Assembly: GCF_006517175.1 (NCBI RefSeq)
Contig: NZ_CP041186.1
Span: forward strand, 7,095,074 to 7,159,073
Length of the DNA stretch: 64,000 bases
Reading direction: 5' to 3'
Origin: Persicimonas caeni
GTDB taxonomy: Bacteria; Myxococcota_A; Bradymonadia; Bradymonadales; Bradymonadaceae
Below the pieces are notes generated by a model. That model was not told where the DNA came from and searched no databases. It worked only from the letters and a program-made list of their open reading frames with translations. The first letter of the stretch is position 1. Every line of letters begins with the position of its first letter. A program made the position numbers and the translations under genes. Positions 2,076 to 54,358 of the stretch are shown here, in pieces.

Positions 2076-2873
2076 TCAATCAAATAGCTTGTCCCCCTTG
2101 CGGGCGATCTCTTGGCAGGTGGTGGAGTCGTCGACCTTCACCATACGAAAGTAGCTCTGCTTTTTGTCCGGATGGGGCTTGGCCGCCTCCATTTCGCCGA
2201 AGATGCGTCCGGTCTTCTCGAGAACGATCTGGTCTGTGTGCCAGTCGATGTGGCCCGCAAATTCACCATTGGAGAGGAGCTTTCCGCGCAGGTCGTCCCA
2301 GCTTCGCTGGATGACGAAGAGCTCCCCGGAGAGCACGCCGCTCAGGCGAATGGTGACGCCTGGGTGGCCATCCTTATCTTGGTCGTAGACTGCCGAGGCG
2401 CCCTTGCTTCGCGGCAACTCGTCGGTGCCTAGCGAAGAGCGCACCCCGTAGAACTTCAGATGCTTGGGGACGTAGAGGTAGATGTCGTCGTCGCGCCGAA
2501 CAAGCCTGCCGTCGCGCTCGAAGGTGCCCATATGGTCGACGAACTGATCGGGGATCGTCGTCTCGACTGCGTTTTGATCGCTGACGACCCGCACGTCGCA
2601 GGGGGTTTCAGAGATCGTGAGTTTCCCGGCGTTCTGCTCGATGGACAGCTTCTGAAAGCTGATGGTCCGCGAGGTCACCGTGCCGATGACCGGCGGGTCG
2701 GAGATCGAGGTGGTGACGAATTTTTGAGCCCAGACCCCCTCGATGCTCGGCACTTCTTGGCTCTTTGGGGGGCTCCTGTCTTTGCTGCTTTGGGCGTGGC
2801 CGTGGTCGATGCCAAGGGAGAGGCTCGTCAGAGCCAAGCAGAAGGCGGCGGCAAGTCCGAGCAAGCGTGACAT
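2076..2873 (-). CDS. Secreted hypothetical protein, paralogue of the next gene (265 aa)
   Basis: A protein with a clear signal peptide (MSRLLGLAAAFCLALTSLSLG, cleavage expected near HGHAQ) and no recognised domain. The start at 2873 has GAGG six bases upstream. The mature part begins PSIEGVWAQKFVTT and ends with a conserved block PHPDKKQSYFRMVKV and a Cys near the C-terminus. Shared blocks with the neighbouring gene (EGVWAQK, DKDGHPG, SGELxxxQ-SWD, GK) show tandem duplication. The DxDxDGHPG-like segment (DQDKDGHPG) resembles a calcium-binding loop, but this is only a suggestion. Function unknown, presumably periplasmic. Confidence 0.75.
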   Translation of the reverse strand: MSRLLGLAAAFCLALTSLSLGIDHGHAQSSKDRSPPKSQEVPSIEGVWAQKFVTTSISDPPVIGTVTSRTISFQKLSIEQNAGKLTISETPCDVRVVSDQNAVETTIPDQFVDHMGTFERDGRLVRRDDDIYLYVPKHLKFYGVRSSLGTDELPRSKGASAVYDQDKDGHPGVTIRLSGVLSGELFVIQRSWDDLRGKLLSNGEFAGHIDWHTDQIVLEKTGRIFGEMEAAKPHPDKKQSYFRMVKVDDSTTCQEIARKGDKLFD

Positions 2874-2972
2874 ACGGGACCTCGGGGCTGAACGACACGC
2901 AACTTGAGCGACGAGTGGTCGTGCCTTACTTGGTCTCAAACATGACCCCGCAGCCTATACGAGCAAGGGGGC

Positions 2973-3500
2973 CTAGAAGAGCTCCTTTTGCGTCTTGACG
3001 ATATCCGCACAACTCGTCTGGGCAGTGACGCGCTTCATCCGAAAATAGCTCTGCTTGGGGTCGGGGTGGGGCTTGCTCTCGGGCGGGTCGCCCAGCAGCC
3101 GGCTGGTCGAGTCGAGTACGACCTGCTCGGTGCGCCACTTGATGCGTCCGACGATGCGCCCGTCTCCAAGCATCTTGCCCCACAGCCGATCCCAACTCTT
3201 TTGGAGTAGATAGAGCTCGCCGTCGATCAAGCCGCTCACGCGCACCGTCATGCCCGGGTGGCCGTCCTTGTCGCCGTCGATGACCCGCGGGTCGCTCTTC
3301 TTGCGCGGCAGCTTGTCGGCCTCGGCGTCGAGGTTGGCCCCCAGGACTTTGGAGACGGCCGTGGTGACGAGCTTCTGGGCCCAGACCCCTTCGACGTCGG
3401 GAAGAGCTGCGGGCGCGTCCGGAGTGGCCGCCAGGGTGTGGGTGCTCGTCGACGCCAGCGCAAAGATGGCCGCGGCGAATAAGAGGGCGAGTCGGTTCAT
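2973..3500 (-). CDS. Secreted hypothetical protein, shorter paralogue (175 aa)
   Basis: Signal peptide MNRLALLFAAAIFALAS, then LPDVEGVWAQKLVTTAV. The start at 3500 is supported by GAGG upstream, the same leader pattern as its paralogue at 2076-2873. Alignment by eye shows both ends are conserved but about 70-80 residues present in the longer copy between VWAQKxVTT and the DGDKDGHPG loop are replaced by a short segment. The C-terminal block PHPDPKQSYFRMKRV and the following Cys are kept. It is about 100 bases upstream of its paralogue on the same strand, so the two may be co-transcribed. Function unknown. Confidence 0.75.
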   Translation of the reverse strand: MNRLALLFAAAIFALASTSTHTLAATPDAPAALPDVEGVWAQKLVTTAVSKVLGANLDAEADKLPRKKSDPRVIDGDKDGHPGMTVRVSGLIDGELYLLQKSWDRLWGKMLGDGRIVGRIKWRTEQVVLDSTSRLLGDPPESKPHPDPKQSYFRMKRVTAQTSCADIVKTQKELF

Positions 3501-49136: not shown

Positions 49137-49315
49137 CGTCACCGACCTCGTTCTGACCTTCGGCGGGTCCCGGACTGGCACATCTGCAGCATCGCTTCTT
49201 TGTATGTGTGTCCGTTTGCGACTCGCCACTCCGTCTTGGGATCGTCGCGCAGTCCTTGTGCATGGGCGAAAGAGCGTCACGAAATCCTCCAGATCGACAC
49301 CCAAGGGAGACCTCC

Positions 49316-50317
49316 ATGTTTTGCCACGTCAAGGAACTGCAGTTCGATGTTCACGTCGAAGAGCCCGATCCGCGTTTTGCCAGCCTCCTGCTCGAGCAAT
49401 TCGGCGGCGGTAACGGTGAGCTCAAGGCTGCCATGCAATATTTCGTGCAGGCCTTTAGCTGCAGGAAGCCGTACCCCGAGAAATACGACCTGCTCATGGA
49501 CATCGCCACCGAGGAGCTCAGCCACCTCGAGATTGTCGGGGCGACGATTACGATGCTGCTCGATGGGATCAACGGCGAGCTCAAGGACGCCGCCAACAAT
49601 GTCGAGTGGGTCGACATCATGAACGACAACGCCAAGAAGGAGCAGTTCATCCATGAGGCGGTCATGGACCCGCAGTTCTTGTCACTCAGTGGCGGCGGCC
49701 CCAAACTGTCGGACAGCCAGGGCAACCCGTGGACGGCCAACTACGTGACCGCCAACGGTGACCCGACGGTCGACCTTCGCTCGAATATTGCGGCCGAATC
49801 ACGGGCGAAGATCGTCTACGAATACCTCATGCAGTTTACCGACGACCCCGGTGTCAAAGACACACTGGGCTTTTTGATGACTCGCGAAATTGCGCACTTC
49901 AAGCAATTTCAGGCAGCCCTCGAAGATATTCAGCCCAACTTCCCTCCCGGGGTACTGCAGGGAGACCCGCGCTTTACCCACAAGTACTTCAATATGTCGA
50001 ACGGCGAAGACGTGCGTGGGCCGTGGAACCAGGGCCAAGGCCCCTGGCAGAACGGTGAGCAGTGGGAATACATCGAAGATCCGGTCAATCAAGTCGTCAG
50101 CTCACAGGGGCAAAAGAGCGCCAAGGCCGGGGGCGACAAGAAATCGTCCAAAGAGGCCAAAAAGAAGAGCCAAGAGTTGAGCAAGCAGCGCAGCCAAGAG
50201 ATCAAGCAAAGTATGTCGAAGAAGGGCAAAAACTGGTCTGACTACAGCGCTTCGCGTGCGTCCCAACCCGGCTCGCCGTCTGGCGACCGCGACAAGCCGC
50301 GCCAGCGGCCCTCCTGA
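49316..50317 (+). CDS. Manganese catalase family protein
   Basis: A 333-residue protein whose first 230 residues match non-haem dimanganese catalase: MFCHVKELQFDVHVEEPDPRFASLLLEQFGGGNGELKAAMQYFVQAF, the metal-binding E-x-x-H in ATEELSHLEIVG and the second in TREIAHFKQFQAAL. It would remove hydrogen peroxide in the cytoplasm. The last 80 residues are a Lys/Ser/Gln-rich disordered tail (KSSKEAKKKSQELSKQRSQE) not usual for the core enzyme. Start 49316 has GGGAGA upstream. A strong hairpin follows the gene. Confidence 0.92.
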   Translation: MFCHVKELQFDVHVEEPDPRFASLLLEQFGGGNGELKAAMQYFVQAFSCRKPYPEKYDLLMDIATEELSHLEIVGATITMLLDGINGELKDAANNVEWVDIMNDNAKKEQFIHEAVMDPQFLSLSGGGPKLSDSQGNPWTANYVTANGDPTVDLRSNIAAESRAKIVYEYLMQFTDDPGVKDTLGFLMTREIAHFKQFQAALEDIQPNFPPGVLQGDPRFTHKYFNMSNGEDVRGPWNQGQGPWQNGEQWEYIEDPVNQVVSSQGQKSAKAGGDKKSSKEAKKKSQELSKQRSQEIKQSMSKKGKNWSDYSASRASQPGSPSGDRDKPRQRPS

Positions 50318-50501: not shown

Positions 50502-51569
50502 ATGGCTACGGCGCTCAAGGAGTGCTCGGTCTGCGATAAGCAGTTTTTGGTCAAGTTTCGCTACCAGATCGAGCGCACGAACAACGGAGTCGAGTACTTC
50601 TGCAGCCAGAAGTGCCGCCAGGACAACACCGCCGAACGCGGTGAAGTGGAGTGCTCGGCTTGCTCGAAGAGCTTCGAACCCAAGTACGCTTTCCAGCAGG
50701 CCACTCAGAACGGCAAGACCGTCTACTACTGCAGCATGGAGTGTCGGAAGCCGTCGGTCTCCGACTACCGGCGCAGAGCCGTCAAAAATGACGAAGGGGC
50801 CATGCGCATCGCCGTGCTCAACCAGAAGGGCGGCACGGGCAAGACGACCACCACCGTCAATGTCGGCGCCGGACTCGCGGAGGCAGGCTACCGGGTGCTG
50901 ATTATCGACGTCGATAGTCAGGGCCACGTGGGAGTCAGCCTCGGGGTCGGCGGCAAAAAAACGCTCTATCACGTCCTTGTTGAGGAGGCTTCGCTCGACG
51001 AATGCATCGTCTCGGCGCGGCCCAACCTCGACATCCTGCCGGCTGACGACACCCTCGCCTCGGCCGAGATCTTTTTGGCCCGCCTCGACGACGGGCGCGA
51101 CAAGCTGCTTCGAAAGCGCCTGCTCGACCAGCAGCAAGACTACGACTTCGTGCTGCTCGATTGCGGCCCGAGCCTGTCGCTGCTCAATATGAATGCGCTG
51201 ACCTTCGCCGAACACCTGATCGTGCCGGTGGCCTGTGACTTCCTGAGTCTCGTCGGCGTCAAGCAGGTCATGAAGACCCTCAAGAATATCAACCGTGTGT
51301 TGATGCACCCCATCAGCATCTTGGGGATCCTGCCGACCTTCTACGACATGCGCAACAACATCAGCGACGAGGCGGTCAAAACCCTCAAGGGCCACTTTCA
51401 CGACAAGGTGCTGCCGCCGGTGCGCGTCAATACCCGCCTCAAAGAGGCGCCCAGCGAGGAGCAGACCATCTTTGAATATGCCCCCGAGAGCCGTGGCGCC
51501 ACCGATTACCGACGTCTGGTCAAGTGGCTGGTCAAGCAACAAGAGCGGCGACTGCAAGCAACCGCTTGA
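50502..51569 (+). CDS. ParA/Soj-type ATPase with two N-terminal zinc-binding-like modules
   Basis: A 355-residue protein. Two successive modules have identical spacing: Cys8, Cys11, Cys34, Cys38 and Cys51, Cys54, Cys77, Cys81 (CxxC-x22-CxxxC). They resemble treble-clef or TRASH-type zinc fingers. A ParA-family ATPase starts at residue 102: deviant Walker A KGGTGKTTTT (Lys109, Lys114), DVDSQGHVGVSLG, DFVLLDCGPSLSLL and the C-terminal GVKQVMKTLKNIN region. ParA proteins move DNA or protein cargo on nucleoid or polar structures. No parB or parS-like site was recognised next to it. Start 50502 has GGAGA eight bases upstream. Confidence 0.88.
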   Translation: MATALKECSVCDKQFLVKFRYQIERTNNGVEYFCSQKCRQDNTAERGEVECSACSKSFEPKYAFQQATQNGKTVYYCSMECRKPSVSDYRRRAVKNDEGAMRIAVLNQKGGTGKTTTTVNVGAGLAEAGYRVLIIDVDSQGHVGVSLGVGGKKTLYHVLVEEASLDECIVSARPNLDILPADDTLASAEIFLARLDDGRDKLLRKRLLDQQQDYDFVLLDCGPSLSLLNMNALTFAEHLIVPVACDFLSLVGVKQVMKTLKNINRVLMHPISILGILPTFYDMRNNISDEAVKTLKGHFHDKVLPPVRVNTRLKEAPSEEQTIFEYAPESRGATDYRRLVKWLVKQQERRLQATA

Positions 51570-51696
51570 AAGCCGGTCAGAATTGACGAGGTATCCCTTA
51601 CGGGATAACATCGGCGAACGGCTAGCGCTCCCGCATGACTGAGCCCGAGAAGGCCGTCACCAGACGTGCTTAAATCGGCCAGGAGGACGTAAATAG

Positions 51697-53142
51697 ATGT
51701 TCCGAGCAAAGATTACGCTGACTTTCGTCATTCTGACGTCGCTTTTGTTGGGCGGCGTTTACTTGATCATGACTGGCAGTATTGCCAGCTCATTCGAGCA
51801 GGATGCCGAAATTGCTGTTCGACGCGCCGCGACCATCGAGGAGCAGTCGATGCGTCTCGACGAGTTCGCGCTTATCGAAAAAGCCGAGTTTACGGCCGTC
51901 GACAAGCAGTTGTATCGGCGTATGCTCCTCGAGGAAGATCCGCAGTTTCTCGAACAACTCGAGGCCAAGTACCCGCAGGCCAACAACGCGGTCGACGTGC
52001 GACACTTGGCCGTGTACGACGAGCCGCTGACCGTCGACAAGATTCGACTGCAGGACGTCGCCAAGACCAGCTCGGGGAAGCGTAATCTGAACCTTGGCCT
52101 TTACGAGCGCCGCCCGGCGCTCCCCGACCTGTTTCTGATCATCGACCAGAACGGCAAGGGCGTGGCGGCTTTGGGCAAGGATAACTACAAGTGGTACGGC
52201 GATAACGTCGCCGAGAAGTACCCGATTATCCTGGAAGCTATCAAAGACAACGAGACCAAGACCACCATGTGGACCTGGTCTTGGAGCGAGTCGGACGACG
52301 CGAACTTCTACCGCGTCGCCATCGTTCCCATTCGCCCGGACCCGTCGAAGCCGGCCGCCGGTGTGGTCGTGACTGGTAACCCCATCGGCGACGGCGTGGC
52401 CAAGCGCACCCAGCGCCTCATGGCGGGTATCACCACCAAGGGTGACGACATCGACACCGTCGACCGCGCCGACCTCGAAGCGGCTCCGGCCGTGGCGTTT
52501 TTCCACGGCGAGCGCATCGTCGGCTCGACATTTTCGACCCCGCAGGAAGACTCGCTGAAGCAATCGGCGTTCAAAGACGCCAAAATTCTCGAAAGTGACA
52601 ACCCCGAGCAGCTCCTCGAGCTCGAAGTTGACGGCGAGCCGTACGTCGGGGTCGTTCGCTACTTTACCGGTGAATTCGAGCAGCCCGACAAAGCTAACAA
52701 GTCCGGGTTCATTGTGCTCAGCAGCCTGCAGTACGCCACCAAGCCCGTCGGGTTGGCCATGACCAACATCTGGCTTCTGGGGGGCGCCATCTTGCTGGTG
52801 GGCCTCATCGCGTTGCTCTTCTTTATCCAGAAATTCGTCAAGCCGGCCGAGACCATCGAGCAGGGCATCGGCGAGATTCTGGCGGGCAACAAGGACTACG
52901 TCTTCGAACTCCGCGACGAACACCCCATTTTCACCAGCATCGTCCAGGGCCTCAACTTGATGAGTGCCTACCTTCAGGGTAAGCCGATGCCCGACGACGC
53001 TGAGAAGCTCGAGGGCTGGGGCGAACTCATCGGCGACAGCGGCGGCTCGAGCGGTGGACCCGCCAAGGTCACCGGTGTGCAGATGCCCGGCATGGGTGGC
53101 GGCTCCAAGAAAGACGACGATCCCACCGACGGCACCACCTGA
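51697..53142 (+). CDS. Membrane protein with extracytoplasmic sensor-like domain (481 aa)
   Basis: An N-terminal membrane helix (ITLTFVILTSLLLGGVYLIM), a 320-residue extracytoplasmic region and a second helix at about 347-370 (TNIWLLGGAILLVGLIALLFFIQKF). A cytoplasmic HAMP-like part follows (KPAETIEQGIGEILAGNKDYVFEL) and then a Gly/Ser/Asp-rich tail. This is the layout of a sensor or chemoreceptor lacking an output domain. PDLFLIIDQNGKGVAAL suggests a Cache-type fold. GGAGG precedes the start by nine bases. It lies 127 bases after the zinc-finger ParA gene, so a functional link is possible. Confidence 0.72.
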   Translation: MFRAKITLTFVILTSLLLGGVYLIMTGSIASSFEQDAEIAVRRAATIEEQSMRLDEFALIEKAEFTAVDKQLYRRMLLEEDPQFLEQLEAKYPQANNAVDVRHLAVYDEPLTVDKIRLQDVAKTSSGKRNLNLGLYERRPALPDLFLIIDQNGKGVAALGKDNYKWYGDNVAEKYPIILEAIKDNETKTTMWTWSWSESDDANFYRVAIVPIRPDPSKPAAGVVVTGNPIGDGVAKRTQRLMAGITTKGDDIDTVDRADLEAAPAVAFFHGERIVGSTFSTPQEDSLKQSAFKDAKILESDNPEQLLELEVDGEPYVGVVRYFTGEFEQPDKANKSGFIVLSSLQYATKPVGLAMTNIWLLGGAILLVGLIALLFFIQKFVKPAETIEQGIGEILAGNKDYVFELRDEHPIFTSIVQGLNLMSAYLQGKPMPDDAEKLEGWGELIGDSGGSSGGPAKVTGVQMPGMGGGSKKDDDPTDGTT

Positions 53143-53173: not shown

Positions 53174-54358
53174 TTGCAACCTCGCGTTCAGACCGGTCTC
53201 GACCGCCTGCTCGCCGACCAGAAGCGCCTCGAGGCGCTCTCTGGCGCGCGGGTGGGCCTCCTCGCCAACCCCACGAGCGTCACCAGCACTCTCGAGCACG
53301 CCATCGACGCCCTGCAGAAGCGCGGCGTCGAGCTCGTGCGCCTCTTCGGACCCGAGCACGGTGTGCGCGCCGAAGCCCAGGACATGGAGGCGGTCGAAGA
53401 GAGCAGCGACCCCATCTCGGGGATTCCCACTGTCAGCCTCTACGGCTCGACCTACGACAGCCTGCGCCCAACCCAGGACCAGCTCGCCGATCTCGACATC
53501 GTCTTGGCGGATATCCAAGACATCGGCGCACGGTACTACACCTACGCCTACACCGTCGGCTTGATGATGGAAGCCTGCGGCAAAGCGGGCGTCGAGGTTT
53601 GGGTGCTCGATCGTCCCAACCCGATCAACGGCGAGGCGGTCGAGGGCAATATCGTACGCGACGAAGCACGCTCCTTCGTGGGCATGCAGCCGCTGGCCGT
53701 GCGCCATGGCATGACGCTCGGCGAGCTGGCCCACTTCTTCAATCGCTTTTGCGGATGGGAGTGTGACCTCGAAGTGGTCGAGATGCGCGGCTGGCACCGC
53801 GAGATGTGGTACGACGACACGGGCCTTCCATGGGTGATGCCCAGCCCGAATATGCCCACCCTCGACACTGCCACGGTCTACCCGGGGCAGTGTCTGCTCG
53901 AGGGCACAAACGCCAGCGAGGCGCGCGGCACGACCCGCCCATTCGAGCTGTTCGGAGCTCCCTGGGTCGACGCAGTCGAGCTTCGCGAACAGCTGCGAGG
54001 TTTCGACCTCCCGGGGTGCCGCTTTCGCCTGGCGTCGTTCCGCCCGATGTTCCAGAAGCATGCCAACACCACGTGCAGCGGGCTGCAGATCCACGTGACC
54101 AACCGCGAGACCTTCGAGAGCATCACGACCTCCTATGCCATCATGAGCGCGATGCTCCAGCAGTCCGACGAGTTCGCCTGGCGCACCGAGGCGTACGAGT
54201 TCGTCGACGAACAGCTCGCGATTGACCTGCTCTTGGGGGATCCGAAGTTGCGTGAAGCTCTCGAAGCGGGCGAAGACCCCGTCGAGGTCGCGCGCACCCA
54301 CGACCCCGCGGTCGAAGAGTTCGCCGAGCGTCGCCGCAAATGCCTCCTGTACGAGTGA
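53174..54358 (+). CDS. DUF1343 family, NamZ-like exo-N-acetylmuramidase
   Basis: A 394-residue protein matching DUF1343: GLDRLLADQKRLEALSGARVGLLANPTSV, LVRLFGPEHGVRAEAQDMEAV, DIVLADIQDIGARYYTYAYTVGLMMEA and VLDRPNPINGEAVEGN are hallmarks. The family includes NamZ, which removes non-reducing-end MurNAc during cell-wall recycling. No signal peptide is seen in this start choice, so it would act in the cytoplasm. The start is TTG at 53174 with a weak GGGAA upstream; the frame stays open further up but overlaps the previous gene. nadD follows after six bases. Confidence 0.88.
   Translation: MQPRVQTGLDRLLADQKRLEALSGARVGLLANPTSVTSTLEHAIDALQKRGVELVRLFGPEHGVRAEAQDMEAVEESSDPISGIPTVSLYGSTYDSLRPTQDQLADLDIVLADIQDIGARYYTYAYTVGLMMEACGKAGVEVWVLDRPNPINGEAVEGNIVRDEARSFVGMQPLAVRHGMTLGELAHFFNRFCGWECDLEVVEMRGWHREMWYDDTGLPWVMPSPNMPTLDTATVYPGQCLLEGTNASEARGTTRPFELFGAPWVDAVELREQLRGFDLPGCRFRLASFRPMFQKHANTTCSGLQIHVTNRETFESITTSYAIMSAMLQQSDEFAWRTEAYEFVDEQLAIDLLLGDPKLREALEAGEDPVEVARTHDPAVEEFAERRRKCLLYE

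Follow-up and report, generated by a model that had tools for sequence, protein, structure and literature searches.

ZnF-ParA, the protein encoded at 50502-51569 of the window (the whole stretch of 64,000 nucleotides of Persicimonas caeni DNA analysed here), joins a pair of N-terminal cysteine modules to a complete ParA ATPase. This fusion is not a local oddity, and its members form one clade, to which none of the 22 canonical ParAs tested belongs. With moderate confidence we take it to belong to a chromosomal positioning system of ParA and a ribbon-helix-helix (RHH) protein, to which an extra treble-clef docking module has been added and from which the RHH gene has been lost in the family of the window. 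As far as our searches reach, ParAs extended by conserved metal fingers are undescribed; no paper on a zinc-finger ParA was found in a literature search that left most subscription journals outside. The features of the locus are as follows.

50502-51569, plus strand: ZnF-ParA gene, 355 amino acids and stop, ATG start; the start is aligned in same-family orthologues of 63-83% identity.
50523-50615, plus strand: treble-clef-like module 1, residues 8-38, with Cys 8, 11, 34 and 38; Pfam DUF2256 and zf-FCS on residues 1-100.
50652-50744, plus strand: treble-clef-like module 2, residues 51-81, with Cys 51, 54, 77 and 81; in every relative aligned.
50802-51536, plus strand: ParA/Soj ATPase domain, residues 101-345; Pfam AAA_31 E 3.8e-48, Thermus Soj E 8.6e-46.
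50826-50849, plus strand: deviant Walker A motif KGGTGKTT, residues 109-116; K109 and K114 in 41/41.
51570-51696, plus strand: gap where most relatives outside the family carry the RHH-like gene; none here, and no convincing remnant.
51697-53142, plus strand: membrane protein of 481 amino acids; N-terminal transmembrane segment, dCache-like periplasmic domain, transmembrane segment, HAMP-like tail.

The original prediction placed Cys8/11/34/38 and Cys51/54/77/81 in two modules ahead of a complete ParA domain, and the translation bears this arrangement out: two CxxC-x22-CxxxC modules are followed from about residue 101 by a Soj-type ATPase, and the starting Met and the cysteines are common to the aligned orthologues. 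ParA/Soj proteins are the top structure-search matches of the ATPase domain with both Foldseek and VIA, the VIA search with the ParA model covering the ATPase part only and not the fingers, and the nearest solved relatives in sequence are Thermus Soj and other ParAs. K109, K114, D136, D138 and D220 (Walker A, Walker B and the hydrolysis Asp) are present in all 41 aligned relatives, the ATPase residues having been aligned to Soj and to a variant in which the aligned Asp is replaced by Ala. Arginines also occupy the positions through which Soj contacts DNA (R284 in 40/41, R308 in 41/41, and R or K at position 312 in 38/41); in Bacillus subtilis Soj such arginines serve non-specific DNA binding, a role that they may have here as well.

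No ParB gene lies beside ZnF-ParA, as had been predicted. A search of the genome with the parB_part profile returned a single match, at 130462-130962, which stands beside a different ParA at about 0.13 Mb, and therefore ZnF-ParA is not the ParA of the genome's ParABS system. Nor did any Pfam or NCBIfam helix-turn-helix model match residues 1-100, where a type Ia ParA carries its N-terminal winged helix-turn-helix; this region is occupied by the Cys fingers. A plasmid or phage origin was considered and rejected, because the window sits on a single 8.05-Mb contig, the family is present in one copy per genome, and a comparison of the fingers with phage and plasmid records gave no match to the former and just two, both weak, to the latter.

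The pairing of the Cys modules is not a product of chance: among 200,000 shuffles of residues 1-90, 312 contained one CxxC-x22-CxxxC and none contained two. All eight Cys are invariant in the 22 rows of alignment A2, which retains 22 of the 30 rows of alignment A1 after eight had been dropped beforehand (near copies or insertions, long-linker rows and one single-module row), whereas in the wider alignment, the window included, the Cys of module 2 are present in 41/41 and module 1 in 32/41. The spacing of the two modules, predicted to be identical, is so in the window's protein but not across the family, where some relatives have one additional residue in module 1 or longer loops. Modules 1 and 2 are identical at 12 of 31 residues, which fits an old tandem duplication.

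The N-terminal modules weakly but consistently resemble the treble-clef fingers of the FCS/MYM, DUF2256 and eL24 types. With residues 1-100 as the query, Pfam returned DUF2256 at 26.5 bits (cut-off 25) and zf-FCS/MYM at 24.7 (cut-off 22.4); with the whole protein as the query both fell under their cut-offs, at 22.0 and 18.2, and in NCBIfam the N-terminus gave only a weak L24e match, far under cut-off. Against the PDB, the A2 profile found eL24 chains of archaeal ribosomes (best E 0.0025) and a ZMYM5 finger (E 0.028); the eL24 alignments shown have all four Cys in register. The AlphaFold model, built from 12 sequences and moderately confident (mean pLDDT 61.5; about 60-80 in the fingers and about 80 in the first of them), has strands and, after them, a helix at the second pair of Cys, the order seen in a treble clef. 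A lack of metal-binding geometry, which the original prediction named as the outcome that would speak against it, thus did not appear in the Pfam, PDB-profile or AlphaFold results, and the fingers may hold a putative structural zinc.

In the window's family the fingers are under purifying selection, with dN/dS of 0.05-0.09 as against 0.01-0.03 in ParA (three close pairs; two further pairs were saturated). That dN/dS is higher in the fingers than in the ATPase, together with the absence of module 1 from 9 of the 41 relatives, is what would be expected if they were structural only, supporting the dimer or the fold, while function resided entirely in ParA and its partner. Module 2, however, is kept in 41/41, also where the partner is absent, and we regard a purely structural role as doubtful. 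Similar FCS-type finger pairs were observed on two viral contigs (L188 at 2500-3426 and L189 at 2881-3423), in frames whose products, named by eye, are RusA-like in one case and a probable homing endonuclease in the other. These frames are without ParA, and the viral pairs were rejected as kin of the fusion; they hint at nucleic-acid binding by this type of finger.

The finger profile matches 126 of the 377 genomes sampled from the phylum, in essentially one ORF per genome, a few genomes showing two matching stretches within one ORF. Full-length relatives were found by protein search in most of the order and class, and each of the 40 loci that were fetched and inspected encodes a finger-ParA fusion. 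Beyond the phylum sample, a scan for close relatives gave 14 loci. Thirteen of them belong to the family and come from genomes that are unlabelled or labelled as Lujinxingia or Myxococcales; the remaining one is a ParA without fingers in the matched part. A phylogeny of ParAs with the same N-terminus had been proposed as a check of the original prediction. In a maximum-likelihood tree of 63 ParA domains (41 fusions and 22 canonical ParAs; L049 was dropped for want of a usable frame) a branch supported at 100/99 sets all fusions apart. Long branches meet at this split, those of L119 and L118 also being long, and the tree is rooted for drawing only.

Directly behind ParA, on the same strand, gene calls place a small gene in 27 of the 40 loci, separated from ParA by -20 to +76 bp (at most 20 bp in 25 of the 27) and often overlapping it. 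Its product, as seen in alignment A3, consists of an acidic-aromatic tail, a basic linker and then an apparent strand-helix-helix core. An aromatic pair follows an N-terminal part of non-positive charge in 27/27 partners, and the linker is net positive in 26/27. The extreme N-terminal part is acidic or neutral, whereas in most ParA partners the N-terminus is described as positively charged (PMC10241942). The acidic-aromatic tail motif, found at L092, L093 and other RHH-bearing loci, is a candidate ParA-docking motif.

Judged by its sequence, the partner is a probable member of the RHH proteins, a class marked by a strand-helix-helix with an S-x-x-I-R core, and we use the term RHH-like for it. 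Pfam RHH_1 matches 11 of the 27 partners (best E 0.0024, under the Pfam cut-off in the member shown), and hhalign gave a probability of 72% for the partner core profile against five accepted RHH_1 stretches from related genomes. The partner profile matched no solved RHH structure in the PDB search, and NCBIfam and PHROGs added nothing useful on the partner. A longer, diverged version at L091 (E 0.002) stands outside the 27.

Co-occurrence of the two genes is close. The A3 profile matches 92 of the 377 genomes, 89 of which also carry the fusion; in 87 of these 89 the partner gene follows ParA at a distance of no more than 2.5 kb and in the same orientation, and in the remaining two both genes are at contig ends. 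The partner occurs alone in three genomes, in two of which the ParA beside it is cut by the contig end, while G308 (L144) has the RHH gene and no ParA within the 2.5 kb fetched. The fusion occurs alone in 37 genomes, 20 of them of the window's family and 17 others; one of the 17 (G365) is cut by a contig end, and at L152, L153 and L155, read by eye, no such gene stands behind ParA. Since most relatives outside the window's family have a separate, probable RHH partner, recognition of DNA or cargo probably lay in a separate protein to begin with. The original prediction was right that the fusion is unusual for a ParA, the treble-clef modules being real and conserved, but its suggestion that recognition is built into the ATPase overlooked the probable RHH partner gene of most relatives.

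An arrangement of ParA followed by a probable DNA-binding protein also suits a pair of transcription regulators, in which ParA and the RHH protein would act on gene expression, in the manner of FleN/FlhG or by autoregulation, and the fingers would bind promoters, with no transport involved. Repression is the usual function of RHH proteins, the fold neighbours of the ParA model include FleN and FlhG, and similar finger pairs occur in the phage RusA-like protein and probable homing endonuclease mentioned above. Moreover, no centromere-like repeats were found upstream at the 40 loci: the 350 bp upstream had no general excess of 8-mers as iteron-like repeats would give, although degenerate repeats could escape this count, and 8-mer repeats with p <=0.05 were present at two of the 40 loci, both RHH-bearing. 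On the other hand, the sequence is nearest to Soj/ParA and not to FleN, the arginines at the Soj DNA-contact positions are conserved, and most of the gene neighbourhood around ZnF-ParA changes between families. A regulatory pair is, in our judgement, unlikely.

The window's family departs from the common arrangement. The RHH profile has no match in any of its 21 genomes, the window's included (one of the 21, G009, is also without a fusion match). That the RHH gene had moved elsewhere in the window's genome was rejected on the same zero count, and a remnant behind the window's ParA was rejected as well, with weak matches only (E 0.22 for the window; the lowest E, 0.005, belongs to a different family). 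On the tree, the window's family (8 rows, 100/94) adjoins L090 (98/93) and then L087, both of which bear the partner. Since the family is nested beyond these two, the absence of the partner is best read as a loss, and the window's ZnF-ParA as a derived orphan.

Under the positioning system that we favour, ZnF-ParA would be a ParA-type positioning ATPase that is encoded on the chromosome, is ancient in Myxococcota and has been passed on vertically. Its ATP-bound dimer would be expected, from the intact Walker motifs and the conserved arginines, to coat the nucleoid non-specifically. The ancestral partner would be the small protein encoded directly downstream, whose probable RHH domain would grip specific DNA and whose acidic-aromatic tail and basic linker, by analogy with ParG, would touch ParA and bring about ATP hydrolysis and release. 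The tip of the tail is acidic or neutral and not basic, and therefore the contact may differ from that of ParG. The two fingers may give ParA a further docking surface, whose likeliest ligand is nucleic acid or the partner's tail; they may thus be what the tail binds. In the window's family, where the RHH gene is lost and the fingers are kept, ParA would work through the fingers or through some other, unlinked partner. A more daring version, to which we give little credence, is a phylum-specific machine in which the fingers took over the recognition of cargo or DNA, so that Bradymonadales, an order that includes predators, could drop the separate DNA-binding partner and run a single-protein ParA system.

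A membrane sensor-like gene follows ZnF-ParA, as predicted. Its 481-residue product is predicted to be of the dCache type (DctB Z 14.2, rmsd 3.6 over 228 residues, with single-PAS CitA domains at higher Z), and Pfam recognised no kinase, MCP or cyclase output domain in it. Two aspects could make this protein the partner that anchors or regulates ParA. First, it adjoins ZnF-ParA in the window, in the majority of the window's family and in two families besides; second, its cytoplasmic tail is strongly conserved (LNLMSAYLQGKPMPDD). The sensor profile, which matches 43 of 57 related genomes, finds it away from ParA in other families (for example G026, G032 and G038) and also in G012 of the window's family, and several genomes (G029, G045, G051, G053) carry the fusion with no sensor match. 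Since the sensor stands beside ParA in some families only, the link is weak; a functional connection is possible, but a ParA coupled to the sensor as its partner seems to us improbable.

Two further genes of the locus may be described here. Just upstream of ZnF-ParA, at 49208-50317 on the plus strand, lies a manganese-catalase family gene (Pfam Mn_catalase E 2.4e-73), whose product has a long C-terminal tail rich in lysine and serine; in the Persicimonas paper, catalase is negative according to the abstract and the table but positive according to the genus description (PMC7188933). Directly after the membrane protein gene, at 53174-54358 on the plus strand, is a NamZ-type exo-beta-N-acetylmuramidase gene, and its order with cytidylyltransferase-like and DUF2520 genes is kept in several relatives.

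A second chromosome-segregation system acting on some other site, as the ParA and DNA-binding partner of relatives would allow by comparison with SegAB (PMC12284271), is as hard to credit as the sensor-coupled ParA, for a genome that already has a canonical ParAB and whose ZnF-ParA has no DNA-binding partner beside it.

Returning to the positioning system with a docking module, how does it compare with the ParA systems already described? ZnF-ParA is like Soj/ParA (Thermus Soj, 1wcv) in its whole ATPase domain, its deviant Walker A motif and its hydrolysis Asp, and differs in the N-terminal treble-clef pair, in having no ParB and in forming a clade separate from the canonical ParAs tested. A closer parallel in plan is ParF-ParG of plasmid TP228 (type Ib), where, as in the relatives, the gene behind ParA encodes a small, tailed protein whose C-terminal domain is RHH or RHH-like (PMC7308502). 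There the RHH dimers bind DNA and the flexible tails stimulate the ATPase, and ParF is a single domain (PMC7308502), whereas ZnF-ParA has an added finger module of 100 residues. In the ZnF-ParA system, moreover, the tip of the partner's tail is acidic-aromatic, the upstream DNA has no conspicuous repeats, and the pair lies on the chromosome and is widely distributed within a single phylum, although the copy in the window is without the partner beside it. SegAB of Sulfolobales likewise pairs a ParA orthologue, encoded on the chromosome, with an RHH protein that binds specific DNA sites; it is archaeal, the accessible part of its report describes no fingers (PMC12284271), and it is likened to ZnF-ParA by plan and not by sequence.

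The modules themselves have the same CxxC ... FCSxxC pattern and length as the zf-FCS (MYM-type), DUF2256 and eL24/TRASH fingers, but they stand in tandem and fused to ParA, and no model matches them strongly. The orphan ParAs PpfA, ParC, McdA and ParI are likewise without a parB near by (PMC9178275); the orphan state in the window differs in being a derived loss of the partner that its relatives have, and in that the ATPase carries fingers. The name of orphan is given to many ParA-like ATPases for want of a known partner that links them to their cargo (PMC10241942). ZnF-ParA varies the ParA/RHH plan by a new module and by a loss that is instructive: its relatives supply a candidate ParA partner with a recognisable tail motif, the partner-less lineage offers a natural comparison of how a ParA can do without one, and the finger extension could show how the choice of cargo is wired into the ParA family.
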